A stretch of 64,000 nt of DNA from Thalassospira lucentensis (GCF_001613805.1 NZ_LPVY01000003.1:310001-374000), one strand, 5' to 3'. Shown: positions 37,212-47,803, counted from the first letter of the stretch. The notes: generated from the letters alone by a model not told the origin. Program-made: numbers and translations.

Positions 37212-38162
37212 TTGATCAACCCGGCCAGCAATATCCTTTGCCTTGGTGCAGCCCATTTTGACCGAACACTGCAATGCACGGAAACATTCGTGCCTGCGGC
37301 GTCAAACCCTGTGCGGACCCTGCATCGCAAACCGGGTGGTGTCAGTCGCAATATCGCGGTTCACCTGCGGTTGCAGGGATGTAATGTCGGCATGCTGGGT
37401 GCGGTCGGCGACGATGGCGACGGCGATCAGATCATCCGCTCCTTATCGGAAATCGGTATCGATACACGGCAAATCCGCAAAATCCCCGGCGGCCATACCG
37501 CGGGTTACACTGCCATTCTTGACGAAACCGGTGAACTGGCCCTTGGCCTGATGGATGCCGAAGTCTATGACCGCCTGACATGCGACCTTCTGGCTGATCA
37601 ACTGGCAAATATTCAAAACTGGCCCTGGTGGCTGGTCGATGCCAATCTGCCGACCGAAACGCTGACCTGGCTGGCTAACCAGAAAGGTACATCGCGTTTT
37701 TGTGCCGCGACCGTATCCCCGTCAAAATCGGCCCGTTTCAAGCCGCTTCTGGACAAACTTGATGTCCTGATTGCCAACCGCGCTGAAGCAAAAGTCCTGT
37801 CAGGTATTGAAATCAACGACATCGATGACGCGGTAAACGCGATCAAATCCCTGCGTGACCATGGTATTCCCCATATTGTCGTCACACTGGGTGCCAAGGG
37901 TGTCATATCCGCCGATGACCGTGAAATTGCGTTCTGGCGCCCCCTGCCCACCAAGGTTGTTGACGTCAATGGTGCCGGTGATGCGTTTTATTCAGGCTTT
38001 CTGTCGGCTTTCAGCAAACCGGAAACCAGCTTTGACGCCGCGATTGGCACCGGCCTTGCCATGGCAAGTCTGACGGCGGAAACCCACGGCACAACAGTCT
38101 GGAACCTTGATAGCAAAACGGTTCAGGAACGCGCGTTAAACGCCTACAAAGAAACGATCTAA
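37212..38162 (+). CDS. PfkB-family carbohydrate kinase, pseudouridine-kinase-like
   Basis: The PfkB fold is clear: NILCLGAAHFDR, the substrate loop PGGVSRNIAVHLRLQGCNVG, MLGAVGDDGDGDQI, and the ATP/anion-hole motif DVNGAGDAFYSGFLSAF with its catalytic Asp. The spacing and the GELALGLMDAEVYDRL stretch resemble PsuK more than ribokinase. I see no psuG glycosidase in the window, so the substrate remains open. The start is uncertain: no ATG is in frame, a TTG at 37125 lies inside the terminator and is unlikely, and the TTG at 37212 gives 316 residues and a normal N-terminus. The gene ends overlapping the convergent amidotransferase gene. Confidence 0.75.
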   Translation: MINPASNILCLGAAHFDRTLQCTETFVPAASNPVRTLHRKPGGVSRNIAVHLRLQGCNVGMLGAVGDDGDGDQIIRSLSEIGIDTRQIRKIPGGHTAGYTAILDETGELALGLMDAEVYDRLTCDLLADQLANIQNWPWWLVDANLPTETLTWLANQKGTSRFCAATVSPSKSARFKPLLDKLDVLIANRAEAKVLSGIEINDIDDAVNAIKSLRDHGIPHIVVTLGAKGVISADDREIAFWRPLPTKVVDVNGAGDAFYSGFLSAFSKPETSFDAAIGTGLAMASLTAETHGTTVWNLDSKTVQERALNAYKETI

Positions 38163-39016
38163 CTGCGAATTTTACCGACTGAATATTTCAGCCAGTTGCC
38201 CAGTTCGATCAATCGGCGTTCATAGCGCAACGCATCATTATCAATGCCATATTGCCATGCCAGATCGCGTCGGCCCGGGTTCTCATGCAATGTCATCCAG
38301 TTGGCCGCCATTGTCTCAAGCGCGCCCTGATCGGCAAACAATCCAGCATCAATCAACCGTTGCCCATACCGCCGGAAAATCGCGGCAAGTTCAGCCAGCG
38401 TATATTCGGGATGGTATTGCACGCCCCAGAATTTCAGACCGTCATATTCCATCACCAATGCCTGAATATGGCTGTGTTCGTTCCCCGCAAGGATTACCGC
38501 CCCCTTTGGCGGAACCGATACTTCGTCCATATGCACCGTCAGTGCCGAAAAACAAATCGATTTCCCGCGATACATCGGATGCGCAACCCCTGCCCGATTC
38601 AGGCGGATCATGCGGCCCACGCCGATCTCGCGTCCATTGGGCGATGCACGCACTTCGCCGCCAAACGCACGGGCAACAATCTGCATGCCCCAGCAACTGC
38701 CAAATACCGGCACACCGGATTCAACCGTCGCCCTGGCCAATGGTAATTGGTTTAAAACGGCATCTTCATCGATATAGGCATTAAGCGCCGAACCGGTCCA
38801 AGCGATGCCGTCAAAATCGCCAAGCTTCACACCGTCGGGAAGACAGTCCGGCCCATCATCTGCAGGCCGGACAATCGTAACATCAAGTTCAGGATCAAGG
38901 CGTCGCAGGGCCGTTTCATATCCCTCGCCCGATGGCGATCCCCCCAGTGAACGGTTCAATTCATTCACTTCGTGGCGATTGCCATCGACAATCAGGATTT
39001 TTCTGACGTTTTCCAT
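38159..39016 (-). CDS. Class I glutamine amidotransferase, putative gamma-glutamyl hydrolase
   Basis: The 285-residue protein has a single GATase-1 domain. The catalytic triad is visible: Cys108 in GSCWGMQ, His202 and Glu204 in QYHPEY. There is no synthetase domain, so it probably hydrolyses a free amide. It is the last gene of a run with an alcohol dehydrogenase, an aldehyde dehydrogenase and a glutamine-synthetase-like ligase. By analogy with PuuD it could release the gamma-glutamyl group from the oxidised intermediate. The sequence around Cys108 is closer to GuaA-type stand-alone GATases than to PuuD, so this role is inferred from context. Confidence 0.8.
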   Translation of the reverse strand: MENVRKILIVDGNRHEVNELNRSLGGSPSGEGYETALRRLDPELDVTIVRPADDGPDCLPDGVKLGDFDGIAWTGSALNAYIDEDAVLNQLPLARATVESGVPVFGSCWGMQIVARAFGGEVRASPNGREIGVGRMIRLNRAGVAHPMYRGKSICFSALTVHMDEVSVPPKGAVILAGNEHSHIQALVMEYDGLKFWGVQYHPEYTLAELAAIFRRYGQRLIDAGLFADQGALETMAANWMTLHENPGRRDLAWQYGIDNDALRYERRLIELGNWLKYSVGKIRS

Positions 39017-39062: not shown

Positions 39063-40232
39063 TTAGCCAAGTTCGCCGACACAGGCCCGACGGAAGATTT
39101 CGGCATAATCAGCCACCGAAAGTTCAATCGGGTTGCCTCCATCGGACGGATCACCCTTGGCTTTGGTCGCGACTTCTTCGGCACGGTTTACGTCAACACC
39201 GATTTCCGCCAGCGTATTGACGATGCCAAGACGGGTACGGAACGCCAGAATCCATTCAAACAGGGTATCAAAGCCCGGTGCGGCAAGGCCCAGCAAACGA
39301 CAAATCGTTTCACAATTGCCTTCAATCGCGCGGCGGTTGGCACGCATGATATACGGCAGAAGGATTGCGTTGGTCAGGCCATGGTGGGTATCAAAAATCG
39401 CCCCGATCGGATGGGCCAGTGCATGAACACCGCCAAGTCCCTTCTGGAAGGCTGTTGCCCCCATCGACGCTGCCGAAAGCATATCAGCGCGCGCCTCGAT
39501 ATCCTTGCCATCGTCATAGGCACGCGGCAGGGCATCAGCAATCAAACGCATACCTTCAAGGGCCACACCATCCGCCATCGGATGATAACCCGGCGCACAA
39601 TGGGCTTCGAAACAATGCACAAACGCATCGACACCGGTCGCGGCCGTCACATGCGGCGGCAGGCCAATGGTCAGTTCCGGATCGGAAATCACGATGGCTG
39701 GTAACATCTTCGGATGGAAGATGATTTTCTTTTCGTGCGTATCTTCCTTGGTGATCACGCTGGCACGACCGACTTCGGAACCAGTCCCCGATGTAGTCGG
39801 AACGGCAACAATCGGCGCGATACCGGCCGGATCGGCACGGGTCCACCAGTCACCGATATCTTCGAAATCCCACATCGGACGGGTCTGCCCCGCCATCAAG
39901 GCAACTGCCTTGGCCGCATCAAGGCCCGAACCGCCACCAAAGGCAATCACACCGTCATGACCGCCTGCACGGTAGACCGCCAGACCGTCTTCAACGTTTT
40001 TGCCTGTCGGATTGCCTTTCACACCAGCAAACAGCCCTGTCGGAAGTCCTGCGGCTTCGTTTGCGGCAATCGCATCGCGCACCATCGGCAGGTCTTTGAG
40101 CCCCTCGTCGGTGATCAACAACGGCTTCTTCATGCCGGTTGCCTTGCAGGCATCTGCCAGTTCTGAAATACGGCCCGGACCAAAACGCACGGAGGTCGGG
40201 AAGTTCCAGTTTCCAACAATCTTCTTGGTCAT
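39063..40232 (-). CDS. Iron-containing (type III) alcohol dehydrogenase
   Basis: The protein has 389 residues from the ATG at 40232. NAD-binding sequence GGGSGLDAAKAVALMAG and the metal-ligand region DAFVHCFEAHCAPGYHPMAD with LAHPIGAIFDTHHGLTNAI are present. Type III dehydrogenases interconvert primary alcohols and aldehydes with NAD. It lies between the amidotransferase and aldehyde dehydrogenase genes on the same strand, so it should produce the aldehyde for the latter. In the Puu pathway an FAD oxidase holds this position, so the substrate here likely has a hydroxyl group. Confidence 0.92.
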   Translation of the reverse strand: MTKKIVGNWNFPTSVRFGPGRISELADACKATGMKKPLLITDEGLKDLPMVRDAIAANEAAGLPTGLFAGVKGNPTGKNVEDGLAVYRAGGHDGVIAFGGGSGLDAAKAVALMAGQTRPMWDFEDIGDWWTRADPAGIAPIVAVPTTSGTGSEVGRASVITKEDTHEKKIIFHPKMLPAIVISDPELTIGLPPHVTAATGVDAFVHCFEAHCAPGYHPMADGVALEGMRLIADALPRAYDDGKDIEARADMLSAASMGATAFQKGLGGVHALAHPIGAIFDTHHGLTNAILLPYIMRANRRAIEGNCETICRLLGLAAPGFDTLFEWILAFRTRLGIVNTLAEIGVDVNRAEEVATKAKGDPSDGGNPIELSVADYAEIFRRACVGELG

Positions 40233-40261
40233 CTCTGTATCCTTTGCGCGCAAACGCGACG

Positions 40262-41653
40262 TTAAATCTTGGTCCGCAGGTGGAAGCTTTTCGGCCGGGT
40301 CAGTGATTCGTAACCCAGTTTCGAAAGCGTGCATCCACGTCCCGAATTTTTCACCCCCGTCCAGGCCAGTGCCGGATCAAGGTAATCTGCACGGTTCATG
40401 AAAACCGTTCCGGTCTGAAGCCGATCACCAATCGAAAGGGCGGCATCCTCATCCGCCGTCCAGACCGATGCCGTCAGGCCGAATTCACTGTCATTCATCA
40501 GGGCAATGGCTTCCTCGTCGGACGTCACCTTCATGACGCCGACCACCGGGCCAAAGCTTTCCTCGCTCATGACGCGCATCGAATGATCGACATTGATCAA
40601 AACCTGCGGCGCCAGATACGGGGTGCCTTCCTTGTTGGCAGCAAATTTCGACGGATCGATCAATGCCTTTGCCCCGTCGCGGATGGCATCGGCAATCTGG
40701 CCACGCACAAAGGCCGCCGATGACGCCCGCACCATAGGGCCAAGGTTGGTTTCCGTATCAACCGGACTGCCAAGGCGGTATTGCGACACAAGGTCGGCTG
40801 CCTTTTCGACAAAAGCATCAAATACGCTTTCATGGGCGTAAATACGTTCAATCCCGCAGCACGACTGCCCGCTGTTAAAGAACGCACCATCAATGACGTT
40901 TTCCACCGCATGATCGATATTGACGTCCGAACGCAGATAGGCCGGGTCCTTGCCGCCAAGCTCCATACCTGTCGCGATGAACTTACCACCCACCGCTTTC
41001 TGGACCGCGTGACCGCCTGGAACCGAACCGGTGAAATTGACGAAATCAACACGGATATCGCCCATCAGTTTTTCCGCATCCGCATGGCTCAGATGCAGAT
41101 ATTGGAACAATCCCTTGGGCAGACCGGCGACTTCAAAGGCCTCGGCAAAGCGTTCCGCGCAAAGTGGGGTCTGGTGCGAATGTTTCAGCACCACCGCATT
41201 CCCTGCCATAAGGGCCGGAACAACGCCATTCACGGCCGTCAGATACGGGAAGTTCCACGGTGCGATGATCGCAACAACGCCCAATGGTTCACGGCGGATG
41301 AAACGGTTAAAACCGGCCTTCTCGCCCGGATTGTAATCGCCAATCGCCTCTGGGGCGATATCGATCATGTAATCTGCACGTTCCTTGAAACCGTTGACCT
41401 CACCACCAGCCTGCGAAATCGGGCGGCCCATCTGCCAGCTGATTTCAGTCGCGATTTCATCCTTTTTCGCGACAAAGGCGGCAACCGCCTTGCGCAGAAC
41501 TTCCTGACGAGTTGCGACCGACACAGTTCGCCATTCGGCCTGTGCGGCGCGGGCAACATCAAGTGCCTTGTTGATCTCGGCAGCACTGGCAAGCGGACGC
41601 TCGACATAAACGGATCCATCAACGGGCGAGATGGTGCGTAAACTCTCGGACAT
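40262..41653 (-). CDS. NAD(P)-dependent aldehyde dehydrogenase
   Basis: The 463-residue protein is of the ALDH superfamily. Catalytic Cys265 is in GQSCCGIER and general base Glu231 in MELGGKDP. Cofactor and oxyanion regions are APWNFPYLTAVNGVVPAL and NFTGSVPGG. It is close to the gamma-aminobutyraldehyde or succinate-semialdehyde type. It follows the glutamine-synthetase-like gene by 84 bp and precedes the alcohol dehydrogenase gene by 29 bp, in one operon. Confidence 0.93.
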   Translation of the reverse strand: MSESLRTISPVDGSVYVERPLASAAEINKALDVARAAQAEWRTVSVATRQEVLRKAVAAFVAKKDEIATEISWQMGRPISQAGGEVNGFKERADYMIDIAPEAIGDYNPGEKAGFNRFIRREPLGVVAIIAPWNFPYLTAVNGVVPALMAGNAVVLKHSHQTPLCAERFAEAFEVAGLPKGLFQYLHLSHADAEKLMGDIRVDFVNFTGSVPGGHAVQKAVGGKFIATGMELGGKDPAYLRSDVNIDHAVENVIDGAFFNSGQSCCGIERIYAHESVFDAFVEKAADLVSQYRLGSPVDTETNLGPMVRASSAAFVRGQIADAIRDGAKALIDPSKFAANKEGTPYLAPQVLINVDHSMRVMSEESFGPVVGVMKVTSDEEAIALMNDSEFGLTASVWTADEDAALSIGDRLQTGTVFMNRADYLDPALAWTGVKNSGRGCTLSKLGYESLTRPKSFHLRTKI

Positions 41654-41737: not shown

Positions 41738-43105
41738 TCAAATGATTTCGAAGTAACGCTGCATTTCCCAGTCGGTAATCGCCTTGCGGAATTCGCGTTC
41801 TTCCCATTCCCGCGATTGGGCGTAATGGGTCACAAATTCTTCGCCAAACAGTGATTTTGCCGCCTCGGATTTGCGCAAACGTCCGGCTGCCTCGTAAAGG
41901 GTCGCGGGCAATGTCGTATCTTCGGGGAATTCCTGCGCATAGGCGTTGCCAACGACCATTTCGCCCGGCTCCACCTTGTTTTCAATGCCCCAAAGCCCCG
42001 AGCCGATGGCAGCCGAAAGCGCGATATAGGGGTTAATATCCGCCGCAGCAATGCGATATTCAATGCGTTGCGACTTCGCACTCCCCGGAATGACGCGAAG
42101 CGCCGTGGTCCGGTTTTCAACTCCCCATGTTGCCGTCGTCGGTGCCCAGAAACCCGGGATCAGTCGCGAATAACTGTTTACCGTACAGGCCACCATCGAC
42201 AGCAGTTCCGGCATAAGTTTCTGCTGCCCGCCAAGGAACCAGCGCATTTCATCGGACATGTTGTGCGGTTTATTGGCGTCATAAAATGCCGCCCGGCCAT
42301 CCTTGCCCTTTATCGAAACATGCATATGCCCCGACTGCCCCGGCCAATCGGGCGACCATTTCGCCATAAAGGTCGCCATCCATCCAGCACGCTGGGCCAG
42401 AACCTTGGTAAAGGTCTTGAACAATGCGGCTTTGTCGGCCGCCCTTAATGCATCGTCATGACCGATGGCGGCTTCAAGCACACCCGGGCCAGTTTCGGTA
42501 TGAAGTCCCTCGATCGGGAAATCCATGCTTTCGCCCAGTTCAAGCAGGTCATGATAGAATTCCGAATGCACGGAATTACGCAGCATCGAATAACCGTAAA
42601 AGCCCGGCGTGATGTTCTTAAGATTGCGATAATTCTTCTCGCGCACAGAATGCGGATCTTCCTCGAACAGAAAAAACTCGAATTCGCAGGCGGCCGAAAC
42701 GTCATACCCCATGCTATCGGCTTTTTCGAGAACACGGCGCAATGTGCCACGCGGGCAAACCGTTTCCGCCCGTCCGTCGAACTCACCAAGGAACAGGACT
42801 GTATCGTCCTCCATCGGCAATTCGCGGCAACTTTCCGGGATCACGCGCACCGGTGCATCCGGATATGCCGTGTGCCAGCCAGTAAACTCGGACTTGTCAT
42901 AAAGCTGGTCATTTGAATCCCAGCCCAGAACCACATCACAAAAGGCAAAACCGGAATCGAGTGCCGACAAGAATTTGTCGCGATGCATGTATTTGCCGCG
43001 CATGATTCCGTCGACGTCGAAAATACCGATTTTGACGAATTTGATGTCTCGTTCCTTGATCAGTTTTCGTGCGTCATCGGCGGTTTTGACATCCTTCGCC
43101 TGCAT
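41738..43105 (-). CDS. Glutamine-synthetase-like gamma-glutamyl-amine ligase
   Basis: The protein has 455 residues. The beta-grasp start IKFVKIGIFDVDGIMRGKYM is followed by the catalytic domain: metal site CEFEFFLFEE, GLHTETGPGVLEAAI, HMHVSI, NSYSRLIPGFWAPTTATWG, ENRTTALRVIPG and RIEYRIAAADINPYIALSA. This is the PuuA/GlnA-III type, which joins glutamate to amines, rather than GlnA-I for ammonia. The neighbouring genes support an amine or amino alcohol as partner. Two TGTAA-N6-TTACA sites lie about 90-150 bp upstream. It probably starts its own transcript. Confidence 0.88.
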   Translation of the reverse strand: MQAKDVKTADDARKLIKERDIKFVKIGIFDVDGIMRGKYMHRDKFLSALDSGFAFCDVVLGWDSNDQLYDKSEFTGWHTAYPDAPVRVIPESCRELPMEDDTVLFLGEFDGRAETVCPRGTLRRVLEKADSMGYDVSAACEFEFFLFEEDPHSVREKNYRNLKNITPGFYGYSMLRNSVHSEFYHDLLELGESMDFPIEGLHTETGPGVLEAAIGHDDALRAADKAALFKTFTKVLAQRAGWMATFMAKWSPDWPGQSGHMHVSIKGKDGRAAFYDANKPHNMSDEMRWFLGGQQKLMPELLSMVACTVNSYSRLIPGFWAPTTATWGVENRTTALRVIPGSAKSQRIEYRIAAADINPYIALSAAIGSGLWGIENKVEPGEMVVGNAYAQEFPEDTTLPATLYEAAGRLRKSEAAKSLFGEEFVTHYAQSREWEEREFRKAITDWEMQRYFEII

Positions 43106-43194: not shown

Positions 43195-43210
43195 TGTAAT
43201 GTAAATTACA
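43195..43210. promoter_or_regulatory. TGTAA-N6-TTACA site A, ligase promoter
   Basis: TGTAA and TTACA half-sites with a 6-bp spacer, 90 bp upstream of the ligase start. The same 16-bp pattern occurs in front of the TRAP operon and rpiR. Confidence 0.65.
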
Positions 43211-43243
43211 ACATTGAACATTTAAACAAATATTTTGCCATTT

Positions 43244-43259
43244 TGTATTATTTGTTACA
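43244..43259. promoter_or_regulatory. TGTAT-N6-TTACA site B, ligase promoter
   Basis: A second site with one mismatch in the left half, 49 bp from site A. The pair spacing of about five DNA turns is nearly the same as for the other pair (50 bp). Confidence 0.55.
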
Positions 43260-43298
43260 TGGACAAAACTCGCATAAATACAAAAGAATACCGGTTTA

Positions 43299-43336
43299 CA
43301 GGGCAGCAGGTGCCCAATGAAACATCTGCTGCCCTG
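43299..43336 (-). terminator. Strong inverted repeat after dctP
   Basis: CAGGGCAGCAG (43299-43309) pairs perfectly with CTGCTGCCCTG (43326-43336), with a loop of about 16 nt. It lies directly past the dctP stop at 43367. It lacks a T run, so it may stabilise the 3' end or terminate with help. The rest of the gap to the ligase gene carries the TGTAA-N6-TTACA sites. Confidence 0.6.
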
Positions 43337-43366
43337 CCCAATCAAAATTGACCGTTCCCGACGGGC

Positions 43367-44419
43367 TTAGCTGTAACGATACGGCTTGCCGGCTTTTTCC
43401 ATCACCGCAGCATACTGCTTGAAGATATCCACGACCTTCGCGCAACGCGGGCTGGTCTGTGCAATCTCGTCCCAGAATTTATGTGCTTCGGCTTCAACCG
43501 TCGCCCATTCCGCATCCGGGATCGAGGTCAGCTTCATCTTCGTGCCTTGGGTACGAAGTTTGGCTTCACCACCCCAGTACCAATGCTGGCGATAATAGTG
43601 CGAGCTGTCCATGCACAGCTTGAACAGAACTTTCAGATGTTCCGGAAGTTCGTTCCAGCGTTCTTCATTGGCGAAGAACGAGCCACACCATGCACCAGAA
43701 ATGTTGTTGGTCAGGAAATAGTTGGTCACATCGGCCCAACCGACCGTGTAATCCTCGGTGATGCCCGACCATGCAATCCCGTCAAGTTCGCCGGTCTGAA
43801 CGGCAACCTCGATGTCTTCCCACGGCAGGGTGACCGGAACAACGCCAAAGCGCGACAGGAATTTACCAGCCGTCGGGAAGGTAAAGACACGCTTGCCTTT
43901 AAGGTCTTCCAGACTGTTGATCGGATCAACCGTTGCAAAATGGCACGGGTCCCACGAACCGGCCGAAAGCCATTTGACACCTTCGACTTCGCTATATGCT
44001 TCGTCCCAGATTTCGTTCAGGCCGTATTCTTCAAACAGGACCGGAACGTCAAGGCTGTAACGGGTCGCGAACGGGAAATAGCCGCCAAAGACCGAAATAT
44101 CCACCGGAGCCGCAATCGAGTCATCATCGGACTGAACCGCATCAATAGTGCCGCGCTGCATGGCACGGAACAACTCGCCGGTCGGAACCAGCTGATCGGC
44201 ATAGTAAAGTTCGATTTCCATTTCGCCATTGGCGACCTTGTTAAAGGCATCAATCGCCGGTTTGATCACATGTTCGCCCAGCGCCGGACCGGCATAGGTC
44301 TGCAAACGCCAGGTGATCTTGGCGTTCTGCGCCTTGACATAAGGTGCGGCAAACGCCGTGGTACCGGCTGCTGCGGTTGCAACACCGGCTTTCTTCATAA
44401 AGTCGCGTCTCGTCGTCAT
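43367..44419 (-). CDS. dctP: TRAP transporter solute-binding protein
   Basis: The protein has 350 residues. A twin-arginine signal (TTRRDFMKKAG) suggests Tat export of a folded protein to the periplasm. The mature part has the DctP-family pattern ITWRLQTYAGPALGEHVIK, GTIDAVQSDDDSIAAPVDIS and EVAVQTGELDGIAWSGITEDY. It belongs to the TRAP group that binds organic anions, keto acids or related solutes. Gene order is Q-M-P, not the usual P-Q-M. The ligand should match the neighbouring catabolic enzymes, but it is not shown by the sequence. Confidence 0.9.
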   Translation of the reverse strand: MTTRRDFMKKAGVATAAAGTTAFAAPYVKAQNAKITWRLQTYAGPALGEHVIKPAIDAFNKVANGEMEIELYYADQLVPTGELFRAMQRGTIDAVQSDDDSIAAPVDISVFGGYFPFATRYSLDVPVLFEEYGLNEIWDEAYSEVEGVKWLSAGSWDPCHFATVDPINSLEDLKGKRVFTFPTAGKFLSRFGVVPVTLPWEDIEVAVQTGELDGIAWSGITEDYTVGWADVTNYFLTNNISGAWCGSFFANEERWNELPEHLKVLFKLCMDSSHYYRQHWYWGGEAKLRTQGTKMKLTSIPDAEWATVEAEAHKFWDEIAQTSPRCAKVVDIFKQYAAVMEKAGKPYRYS

Positions 44420-44586
44420 TGTATCATCTCCCTGATCGATGAAGTTCGTTAACGCATTAATTAGCTGCCCTGCCCGCCTTACGGGTCTGGCAGCGCCTCC
44501 TCTTGTTGGAAATTTGAACCTCCCCTGAATTGATTTTGTTTTGAACGGCGGGGCCTTGCGACCCCGCCGGTATCGGGTTCATTTGC
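44420..44586 (-). promoter_or_regulatory. Gap between dctM and dctP with a hairpin
   Basis: A 167-bp gap holds a GC-rich hairpin near 44550 (GGCGGGG and CCCCGCC around CCTTGCGA). It may limit read-through from dctM or give dctP a separate transcript level. Confidence 0.4.
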
Positions 44587-45912
44587 TTACCGCGCGTAAT
44601 GCCATTCCGGCAGCCACAGCGCGATCTGCGGGAACGCCATCACGATGCCAAGCGCCATCGCCATGATGATCACAAACGGTGTGATGGATTTATAGATGTC
44701 CTTTAACGTCACCTCTGGCGGGGCCATGGCTCGCATCAGGAACAGGTTGTAACCAAACGGCGGTGTCATATAGGCGATCTGACAGGTGATGGTATAAAGC
44801 ACGCCATACCAGACCAGATCGAAACCAAGTGCACCAACCAGCGGCACATAAAGCGGTGCGACGATCACCAGCATTGCGGTGTCATCAAGGAACATGCCCA
44901 TCAGGATGAAGGAAATCTGCATCATGATCAGTATCTGCCACGGGCCAAGGCCCATCTGATCGACAAAGAAGCTTTCAATCGCCCGGACCGCACCCAGGCC
45001 GTCAAAAACGGCACCAAAGGCAAGGGCCGCCAGAATGATCCACATGAACATGCAGCTGATCGAAAGCGTTTTGCGCAGGGTTTCTTCCATGACAACGCGG
45101 GTCAGGCGGCGCTTGAACAAGGCGGCAATGGTCGCGGCAAGCGCCCCCACGGCTGAACTTTCAACAAGCGATGTAATCCCCATCAGGAACAGACCGGTCA
45201 TCGAGAAGAAGATGAACAGCGGAACGATCCCGGCTTTCAGCAGGCCGACCTTCTCGCCCCATGTGATTTCCGCGCGTTCGTCCTTGCTCAAGGCCGGGCC
45301 CATGCTGGGCTGCAGCCAGCAGCGAATGGCGATATAAATGATGAACATGCCCGCCATCAGCAACCCGGGGAACACCCCCGCCAGCCAAAGCTGCCCGACC
45401 GGCTGACGCGCGATCATGCCATACAGCACCAGAACCACACTTGGCGGCACCAGAATGCCAAGCGAACTGCCCGCCTGGATCACGCCGGTCACCATGACCT
45501 TGTCATAGCCACGCCGCAAAAGCTCCGGCAACGCAATGCTGGCACCGATTGCCATGCCCGCTACGCTCAGCCCGTTCATGGCCGAAACCGCCACCATCAA
45601 AACAATCGTCCCGATAGCAAGACCACCGCGCACCGGCCCCATCCAGACATGGAACATCCGGTAAAGATCATCGGCCAGACCGGATTCCGAAAGCATGTAA
45701 CCCATATAGACAAACAGCGGCAACGTCAGAAGCGGATACCACTTCATCAGCTTCATCGCGGCACTGAACGCCATTTCAGAACCGCCATCCCCCCACATAC
45801 CAAGAGCAAAAACAACGGCAACAAAACCGATGGCACCAAAAACCCGTTTCCCGGTCAGAAGCATCAGCATCATCGTGGAAAACATCAGAAGAGCGATCAT
45901 CTCGTAACTCAT
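44587..45912 (-). CDS. dctM: TRAP transporter large permease
   Basis: The 441-residue membrane protein has about 12 helices. DctM features are LTLPLFVYMGYMLSESGLADDLY, MNGLSVAGMAIGASIALPELLRRGYDKVMV, QAGSSLGILVPPSVVLVLYGM and the end TPPFGYNLFLMRAMAPPEV. It uses the ion gradient to move the solute delivered by the binding protein. Its start overlaps the dctQ stop by four bases. Confidence 0.95.
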   Translation of the reverse strand: MSYEMIALLMFSTMMLMLLTGKRVFGAIGFVAVVFALGMWGDGGSEMAFSAAMKLMKWYPLLTLPLFVYMGYMLSESGLADDLYRMFHVWMGPVRGGLAIGTIVLMVAVSAMNGLSVAGMAIGASIALPELLRRGYDKVMVTGVIQAGSSLGILVPPSVVLVLYGMIARQPVGQLWLAGVFPGLLMAGMFIIYIAIRCWLQPSMGPALSKDERAEITWGEKVGLLKAGIVPLFIFFSMTGLFLMGITSLVESSAVGALAATIAALFKRRLTRVVMEETLRKTLSISCMFMWIILAALAFGAVFDGLGAVRAIESFFVDQMGLGPWQILIMMQISFILMGMFLDDTAMLVIVAPLYVPLVGALGFDLVWYGVLYTITCQIAYMTPPFGYNLFLMRAMAPPEVTLKDIYKSITPFVIIMAMALGIVMAFPQIALWLPEWHYAR

Positions 45913-46418
45913 GAAAGGCTCTCCCCGCGGGCGGCTGCCACATCTTTAAAGAAGGTTGCAATTGCCTGCAGCAGCATCATGAACACGCCAAATGTCATGA
46001 TCGCCTTGATCGGCGACATCGGCGGTGACCACGCGGAATAGCTGGTTTCGCCATACTCGAACGCATAGGCGGTCGATGACACGCCGCCATACAGCAGAAA
46101 TGCCAGATAAAAGATCAGAAACAGGATCGTGATCGCATCAAGCCCGGCCTGTTTGCGCGGCGACAATGCGCCATACAGCAAATCCATCCGAACGTGCGAG
46201 TCCAGCTGCATGGAATATCCCCCGCCCAGCAGGAAATAGGACACCATCAGGAACTGAGCCGTTTCCAGTGTCCAAAGGGCCGGAAATTCCATCAGCTTGG
46301 TCGCGGCGGAATACAAAAGCACCGCAAGCATCGCAAAAATCAGATACATCGCAAACCGGCCGATGATGCGGTTCACACAATCGACCCATCTGACGTAGGT
46401 CTTGATAAATTCAGGCAT
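45909..46418 (-). CDS. dctQ: TRAP transporter small permease
   Basis: The 169-residue protein has four membrane helices and ends in a basic tail. It resembles DctQ (LETAQFLMVSYFLLGGGYSM, HVRMDLLYGALSPRKQAGLD). It is the first gene of the dctQMP operon and is preceded by a leader of about 300 bp that carries the divergent control region with rpiR. Confidence 0.92.
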   Translation of the reverse strand: MPEFIKTYVRWVDCVNRIIGRFAMYLIFAMLAVLLYSAATKLMEFPALWTLETAQFLMVSYFLLGGGYSMQLDSHVRMDLLYGALSPRKQAGLDAITILFLIFYLAFLLYGGVSSTAYAFEYGETSYSAWSPPMSPIKAIMTFGVFMMLLQAIATFFKDVAAARGESLS

Positions 46419-46743
46419 CTAACGCCACCCCAACATCTCCCTGTTTTATCGGTCGCAACAGCGGTTGGTCTGCCATCTGCAAATACGATCCCACCCGTTC
46501 GCATCCGAAGGACACGAACGGTGATCTGAAATGCCTTACCGCCCGGAAAAACCCGGCAGGTTCAACATCGACACCAAATCTGGATGGAAATATTCGCAGC
46601 CCTGACAACCCATATTGCATCCCCCTTGTCTGCACCACCTTTTACAAGGCCGTACCGTGTGATGAACCGCCTCCCAGGCGACCGACTCTTGCCAAGTCGT
46701 TGAATTGTTGCACCGCTTTTCGCGGTACGGGTTTTATCCCTTC

Positions 46744-46759
46744 TGTAATGAACGTTACA
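46744..46759. promoter_or_regulatory. TGTAA-N6-TTACA site C
   Basis: Perfect TGTAA and TTACA arms with the spacer TGAACG, upstream of dctQMP. The centre is 50 bp from site D. Confidence 0.65.
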
Positions 46760-46793
46760 TGATTTCAATTTTGATGACAAGAATATCAAATAT

Positions 46794-46809
46794 TGTAAAA
46801 TTCGTTACA
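46794..46809. promoter_or_regulatory. TGTAA-N6-TTACA site D
   Basis: Perfect arms with the spacer AATTCG, extended to TTGTAA/TTACAA, about 110 bp upstream of the rpiR TTG start. Likely bound by the RpiR protein for both directions. Confidence 0.65.
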
Positions 46810-46921: not shown

Positions 46922-47803
46922 TTGGATGCGAAGCAGCAGGCAACGAAACCGACAGTCGCCGAACAGATCACGCAAAAAGCCGATACACTGACCGCGTCGG
47001 AACGCAAACTGGCCCAGGCGCTGCTTGGCAACTATCCGATGGCCGGCCTTGAAACGGTGGCAACCTTTGCCGAAAGGTGTGGCGTTTCCGCCCCGACGGT
47101 GCTGCGCTTTGCCAGCAAGATCGGCTTTGACAGCTATCCCGATATGCAGGCGCGCCTGCGCGGTGAACTCGAAGCTCGCCTGCAATCACCTTTGACCCGA
47201 AGCAGCCTGCCACGCTCGCGCAATCATTCCGGTCATCCGATGGGTGAATTGCTTCATGAAATGACCGAAGCAACCATTAGCAACATTCGCACAAGCCTTG
47301 CCAACATCAACCCGGCCGAACTGCAAAGTGCCATTGAACTGATCGGTGATTGCAAGGGATCGGTTTATCTGCTGGGCGGGCGGTTTACATCCGCCCTTGC
47401 GGTTTATGCCTATGAACATCTGCGCACCATGCGAAGCCATGTTCGGCGCGTCTCGGGCCAAAGTGCCAAATGGGCCGAAGACCTTCTGGATATCGGCAAA
47501 CGCGATGTTCTGCTGGTTTTTGATGTCCGACGTTATCAGGCTGATGTCATTGCCTTTGCCGAAGCCGCCGCACGGCAGGATGCCAAAATCATTCTTTTCA
47601 CGGACCAGTGGCTCAGCCCGATTGCGCAATTCGCCCGGCATGTCTTTCCGGTCCGTATCGAAACCGGCACGACATGGGATAGCTCTGCTGCCAGCATGGT
47701 AATGCTTGAAACCCTGCTTGAAGGGGTTGGTCAACATAACCCCGAGCAGGTGCGTGCGCGCATCAAGCATCTGGAAATTCTGCGTCGCCCGTCTCAATCT
47801 TAA
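46922..47803 (+). CDS. MurR/RpiR-family regulator with SIS domain
   Basis: The protein has 293 residues. The N-terminal RpiR helix-turn-helix (about 25-80: SERKLAQALLGNYPMAGLET and CGVSAPTVLRFASKIGFDSY) is followed by a SIS sugar-isomerase-like domain (about 125-255: YLLGGRFTSALAVYAYEHLR, DVLLVFDVRRYQADVIAFAE). The start is TTG at 46922, since no ATG is in frame nearby. It is divergent from the TRAP operon and is the obvious candidate to bind the four TGTAA-N6-TTACA sites. The effector could be a phosphorylated compound or an amine catabolite. Confidence 0.9.
   Translation: MDAKQQATKPTVAEQITQKADTLTASERKLAQALLGNYPMAGLETVATFAERCGVSAPTVLRFASKIGFDSYPDMQARLRGELEARLQSPLTRSSLPRSRNHSGHPMGELLHEMTEATISNIRTSLANINPAELQSAIELIGDCKGSVYLLGGRFTSALAVYAYEHLRTMRSHVRRVSGQSAKWAEDLLDIGKRDVLLVFDVRRYQADVIAFAEAAARQDAKIILFTDQWLSPIAQFARHVFPVRIETGTTWDSSAASMVMLETLLEGVGQHNPEQVRARIKHLEILRRPSQS

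Follow-up and report, generated by a model that had tools for sequence, protein, structure and literature searches.

Within a 64,000-nucleotide stretch of Thalassospira lucentensis DNA (GCF_001613805.1, NZ_LPVY01000003.1:310001-374000; the window), a gene for an RpiR/MurR-family regulator (rpiR) is divergent from what is probably an ethanolamine uptake and gamma-glutamylation operon of the EtoVWX type. The operon encodes a tripartite ATP-independent periplasmic (TRAP) transporter (dctQMP), a glutamine-synthetase-like ligase (glnA), an aldehyde dehydrogenase, an iron-containing alcohol dehydrogenase and a class-I glutamine amidotransferase-like protein (Table 1). The initial annotation, made from the sequence of the window, described four TGTAA-N6-TTACA sites in two pairs, one before glnA and one between dctQMP and rpiR. 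All four were confirmed in position, three exact and one with a single mismatch. Their start-to-start spacing is 49 bp for the glnA pair (43195/43244) and 50 bp for the rpiR/dctQ pair (46744/46794), as had been described; with 10.5 bp to a helical turn, this amounts to about 4.7 turns and not to the five proposed.

Table 1. Operators, predicted promoters and genes at the rpiR/glnA locus; positions are counted from the first nucleotide of the window.
Feature	Position	Strand	Description	Sequence or basis
Operator R	46794..46809		rpiR-proximal; covers the predicted rpiR promoter -10	TGTAAAATTCGTTACA, exact dyad
Operator Q	46744..46759		dctQ-proximal; covers the predicted dctQMP promoter -10	TGTAATGAACGTTACA, exact dyad
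Operator G1	43195..43210		glnA-proximal	TGTAATGTAAATTACA, exact dyad
Operator G2	43244..43259		glnA-distal	TGTATTATTTGTTACA, one mismatch (TGTAT half-site)
dctQMP promoter	46752..46780	-	predicted	-35 TTGTCA (46780-46775), 17 bp, -10 TAACGT (46757-46752)
rpiR promoter	46774..46801	+	predicted	-35 ATGACA (46774-46779), 16 bp, -10 TAAAAT (46796-46801)
rpiR	46922..47803	+	RpiR/MurR-family regulator, HTH_6 + SIS; proposed operator-binding protein	Pfam PF01418, PF01380
dctQ	45909..46418	-	etoV-like TRAP small permease	Pfam PF04290
dctM	44587..45912	-	etoW-like TRAP large permease	Pfam PF06808
dctP	43367..44419	-	etoX-like TRAP solute-binding protein, probably for ethanolamine	PDB 4uab/4xf5 match
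glnA	41738..43105	-	glutamine-synthetase-like ligase, probably ethanolamine gamma-glutamylase	Pfam PF00120 and operon position
Aldehyde dehydrogenase	40262..41653	-	aldehyde dehydrogenase of the pathway	Pfam PF00171; kept in operon
Alcohol dehydrogenase	39063..40334	-	iron-containing alcohol dehydrogenase of the pathway	Pfam PF00465, PF25137; kept in operon
Amidotransferase	38159..39016	-	class-I glutamine amidotransferase-like, probably gamma-glutamylglycine hydrolase	Pfam PF00117; role inferred from the pathway in PMC10132767

The exact motif is rare in this genome: a scan of 4.55 Mb returned three exact sites, and all three lie at the rpiR/glnA locus. Allowing one mismatch gave a further 40 sites. 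These are spread over genes and intergenic regions without a common theme, and a wider regulon beyond the locus was rejected for this scatter. An intergenic one-mismatch site, L208, reads TGTAATGTAAATAACA.

We compared 29 Thalassospira genomes, defining an RpiR orthologue by at least 75% identity, and found the orthologue in 14. All 14 carry two exact dyads between rpiR and dctQ, always 50 bp apart. In the alignment of this region, 20 of 20 half-site columns are invariant (all 10 half-site bases of operator R, and those of operator Q likewise) relative to 28 of 423 other intergenic columns (7%). The glnA pair can be identified in 12 of the 14 genomes, spaced 49 bp in nine and 50 bp in three. 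Operator G1 has at most one mismatch in 10 genomes, two mismatches in two and is deleted in two; in two of the 12 genomes retaining the pair, one site is degenerate. The mismatch in G2 is itself preserved in 11 of the 12 genomes retaining that site. With the two deletions excluded, 17 of 20 half-site columns of the glnA pair are invariant, compared to 10 of 185 elsewhere. In G017 and G013 (L159, L160), about 70-80 bp of the dctP-glnA gap are missing, including the glnA operator pair.

These data bear on whether the sites are chance palindromes in A+T-rich intergenic DNA. At the two-mismatch level the window holds 14 dyads against 12.85 expected, which is not above chance and is what such palindromes would give. 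However, the exact sites, their spacing and their conservation lie far beyond chance, and conservation refutes this explanation, to which we attach practically no weight.

The operon, the orthologous rpiR and the paired sites co-occur across the 29 genomes. The ligase is present in 14, the same ones that bear RpiR, and DctP of the same clade in 15, namely those 14 and G003. Exact sites in the RpiR-bearing genomes lie mostly at the locus (38 of 55), the other 17 corresponding to 1.2 per genome; the 15 genomes without an orthologous RpiR give a matching background of 19 exact sites, or 1.3 per genome, with no pair about 50 bp apart among them. In G003 (L161), the equivalent operon comes with another RpiR, at 41% identity, and another ligase, and has no TGTAA dyads; a weaker TGAAA-type pair, 30 bp apart, is found instead. 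Regulator, ligase and operator all differ together in this genome.

Outside Thalassospira, many alphaproteobacteria have RpiR relatives at 33-49% identity, and most of these adjoin the same TRAP and enzyme genes where the neighbourhood was examined. For 117 alphaproteobacterial relatives from outside Thalassospira with sufficient upstream sequence, we scanned about 330 bp for TGWAA-N6-TTWCA, counting sites that score at least 9 of 10 (at most one mismatch), with dinucleotide shuffles as the control. We found the site upstream of 89 of the 117, in marine and other alphaproteobacteria, compared to 4.3 (standard deviation 1.9) in the shuffles. Pair spacings pile up at 44 bp (27 pairs) and 29/30 bp (33 pairs), and the shuffled sets give about one pair. 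We also searched 85,000 genomes for exact dyads in tandem; most matches were in A+T-rich, unrelated genomes, and only those in Thalassospira adjoin an orthologous rpiR. One match, in Robbsia andropogonis (L063, 3344-3409), is a pair of exact TGTAA-N6-TTACA dyads spaced 50 bp, and the surrounding 8 kb contain neither the operon nor an rpiR homologue.

The half-site also follows the recognition helix of the regulator. The first 25 relatives gave the rule: TGTAA sites accompany PTV-L/I-R helices, and TGAAA sites accompany PTV-A-R. In genomes gathered afterwards, the clear calls were 8:0 in favour of TGTAA for I or L and 20:3 in favour of TGAAA for A (Fisher p 2e-5). A tree of the C-terminal part of RpiR has only three helix changes and five operator changes, and the independent pairs are concordant in direction. 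This match between the helix residue and the middle base of the half-site supports, and does not prove, that RpiR reads the site.

Another regulator, such as a member of the CRP/FNR family, could in principle bind sites of this 5-6-5 dyad geometry. CRP sites are TGTGA-N6-TCACA, with the same geometry, and the TGTA-N8-TACA of the present sites resembles NtcA sites. However, a global regulator would have many sites, whereas the exact sites here are limited to the locus; paired sites are found solely in genomes with an orthologous rpiR, and the half-site base tracks the RpiR recognition helix. In place of a widespread TGTGA-N6-TCACA we found different half-sites with exact copies at the locus only, and we consider binding by another regulator highly improbable.

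The restriction of exact sites to the locus, the co-occurrence of operon, rpiR and paired sites, and the conservation of sites and spacing all point to a single local regulator of all four sites, most likely the divergent RpiR protein. So does the finding of this site in front of distant rpiR homologues whose recognition helix has the matching residue. The proposal in the initial annotation that one regulator, most likely RpiR, serves both pairs is thus well supported. The protein scores above the Pfam gathering cut-offs for an N-terminal HTH_6 domain (PF01418, 51.2 bits) and a C-terminal SIS domain (PF01380, 61 bits). In each of 40 aligned relatives, the SIS domain has D-x-R-R-Y in the region aligned to S-V-W-R-Y of PDB 3sho, and a GG[RD] motif as well. 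These motifs suggest a subfamily-wide ligand pocket; the ethanolamine pathway has no sugar phosphate.

The spacing of the rpiR/dctQ pair coincides with the layout of two predicted promoters whose -35 hexamers overlap. For dctQMP, TTGTCA and TAACGT are invariant in 14 of 14 genomes and give the joint best aggregate score toward the operon. For rpiR, [AC]TGACA-N16-TAAAAT scores 10 of 12 in aggregate over the 14 genomes (z 4.6), with an invariant -10. Each -10 box occupies positions 3-8 of its operator, dctQ-proximal or rpiR-proximal, so the register is the same in both. With the -10 boxes of the two back-to-back promoters apparently inside the two operators, a pair of divergent promoters with a common -35 region and one -10 per operator best accounts for the 50-bp spacing. 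Among the relatives, the offset of a TTGAC-type operon-directed -35 is constant, being 25 in 24 of the 27 pairs at 44 bp and 10 in 12 of the 13 pairs at 30 bp, which would place the -10 inside the operon-proximal operator.

Looping or cooperative tetramer binding had been suggested in the initial annotation; an RpiR tetramer would hold one pair or all four sites, and protein contacts would set the spacing. The strictly kept 50 bp in 14 genomes and the frequency of paired sites among relatives fit this idea, as does the pneumococcal RpiR-family protein NanR, which forms dimers and tetramers and has a proposed second half-site contact 23 bp away (PMC12713135). However, spacings of 30, 44 and 50 bp correspond to 2.9, 4.2 and 4.8 turns, so the helical phase differs between groups, and 49-50 bp falls a quarter turn short of five. 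In addition, the -10 register accounts for the 50 bp without any protein contact. Once this register emerged, we no longer took looping to be required for the spacing; with the 50 bp explained and the relatives spaced at 29/30 or 44 bp, a bridging tetramer is not needed. We regard it as doubtful, yet compatible with the promoter layout as an addition to it.

The presence of a -10 inside each operator favours repression by occlusion together with autoregulation. We consider it probable that the divergent RpiR protein represses the ethanolamine operon at paired operators by -10 occlusion and is released by an inducer, and hold the part of this mechanism that makes RpiR the binder with still greater confidence. 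The RpiR-family protein would act as a local regulator, binding the paired operators at its own locus. At the rpiR/dctQ region, bound RpiR would block both dctQMP and rpiR by covering each -10, so that it represses its own promoter through operator R. Through the glnA pair, RpiR would also control the glnA, aldehyde dehydrogenase and alcohol dehydrogenase steps of the pathway. Ethanolamine or a gamma-glutamyl intermediate is the probable inducer and would release the repressor. The computations show the sites, their conservation, their confinement to the locus, the co-occurrence and the promoter-like register; binding, repression, autoregulation and the nature of the inducer are what we infer.

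Several results weigh against this mechanism. The dctQ -10, TAACGT, matches weakly, and the promoter it belongs to reaches just 8 of 12, the same as an alternative placement. Inside the glnA pair we found no convincing promoter toward glnA, and the pair is absent from two of the 14 RpiR-bearing genomes. Some of the 29-bp pairs in relatives consist of a partial site overlapping a -35 plus the next operator. Helix residue V is mixed between half-site types, and many relatives give no clear call. The helix-operator match amounts to about three independent switches, too few for tree-corrected significance, and it was dropped as proof of that kind.

The glnA pair is the weaker half of the case. It may instead be left over from an earlier arrangement in which rpiR and glnA were divergent, or drive an antisense transcript, with control of glnA lost. 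In favour of this, rpiR is directly divergent from an orthologous glnA in G328. The best promoter-like signal of the pair, TAAACA-N17-TATTAT on the plus strand (43223-43251; 8.9 of 12, z 4.0), points away from glnA, and the preserved G2 mismatch improves this opposed -10, giving TATTAT or TATAAT in relatives; the loss of the pair in two genomes also fits. However, the invariance of its half-site columns is unneeded in a relic, and we think this alternative unlikely. Control of the glnA part by RpiR at this pair remains the reading we prefer.

The same layout may extend to a class of ethanolamine RpiR repressors that have paired operators at 30, 44 or 50 bp with a -10 inside an operator. The A versus I/L helix residue would set the middle base of the half-site, and a tetramer may join both sites. 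We put this forward only tentatively, as a possibility for the class.

The identity of the operon comes from its transporter and its gene set. DctP matches PDB 4uab/4xf5 with 565 bits over 319 residues, a protein that we take to be Csal_0678. According to PMC10132767, the C. salexigens DctP homologue binds ethanolamine. The same paper describes, in Phaeobacter sp. MED193, an ethanolamine cluster of rpiR (MED193_10021), a gamma-glutamylglycine amidohydrolase, EtoVWX, an ethanolamine gamma-glutamylase and two dehydrogenases. Because DctP matches this structure and the gene set resembles that cluster, the genes are probably for ethanolamine uptake and gamma-glutamylation. The order of the ligase, aldehyde dehydrogenase and alcohol dehydrogenase genes is conserved; the alcohol dehydrogenase open reading frame, with its start as listed, overlaps the preceding gene. 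The ligase falls below all NCBIfam equivalog cut-offs and belongs to a different subfamily from the ligase at the same operon position in most relatives, to which it is only about 30% identical; it is 76% identical to that of G328.

The Phaeobacter and Thalassospira clusters share an RpiR protein, a TRAP transporter, a glutamine-synthetase-like ligase and aldehyde and alcohol dehydrogenases; the available text of PMC10132767 describes no operator for MED193_10021. The Thalassospira cluster differs in that it has the divergent ligase, ends with a class-I amidotransferase and carries a further operator pair in front of the ligase gene. In Pseudomonas, the RpiR-family protein RccR binds pseudo-palindromes that start with TGTA, with two 15-bp sites 68 bp apart at aceE, and HexR of the same family is a ligand-released repressor (PMC5489143). 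However, RccR has TGTAGT half-sites and a 3-bp spacer, and its ligand is the sugar phosphate 2-keto-3-deoxy-6-phosphogluconate (PMC5489143), whereas the Thalassospira sites have 5-bp half-sites, a 6-bp spacer and an amine pathway. Caulobacter crescentus IolR is an alphaproteobacterial RpiR-type protein whose module has a dyad with a 6-bp spacer, GGAA-N6-TTCC, but with another half-site and in the myo-inositol pathway (PMC2597717). NanR of Streptococcus pneumoniae has TGAAA/TTTCA half-sites like the TGAAA class of relatives, and its recognition helix touches the base at the G of TGAAA through an arginine; it differs in its 4-bp spacer, its role as an activator and its sugar-phosphate ligand (PMC12713135). 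Half-sites of TGTA or TGAAA and 6-bp spacers are thus known from RpiR-family operators; the Thalassospira sites belong with these, and their paired layout is unusually well conserved.

Membrane lipids supply ethanolamine, which is widespread as a nutrient in the sea, and the transporter gene etoX is reported from about 5-10% of ocean bacteria (PMC10132767). In the literature we found no described operator for an RpiR regulator of etoX-type ethanolamine genes. The predicted operator, promoter layout and specificity residue are testable and could serve to find ethanolamine regulons in many alphaproteobacteria, and also to study signal sensing by an RpiR protein outside sugar-phosphate metabolism.

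Between dctP and the glnA operator pair, the minus strand holds a strong stem-loop (43298-43337) without a clear T-run. It folds with -34.9 kcal/mol (z -2.95), and its counterpart in L153 has z -4.28. This stem-loop after dctP is perhaps a stabiliser of dctP mRNA or a partial terminator.

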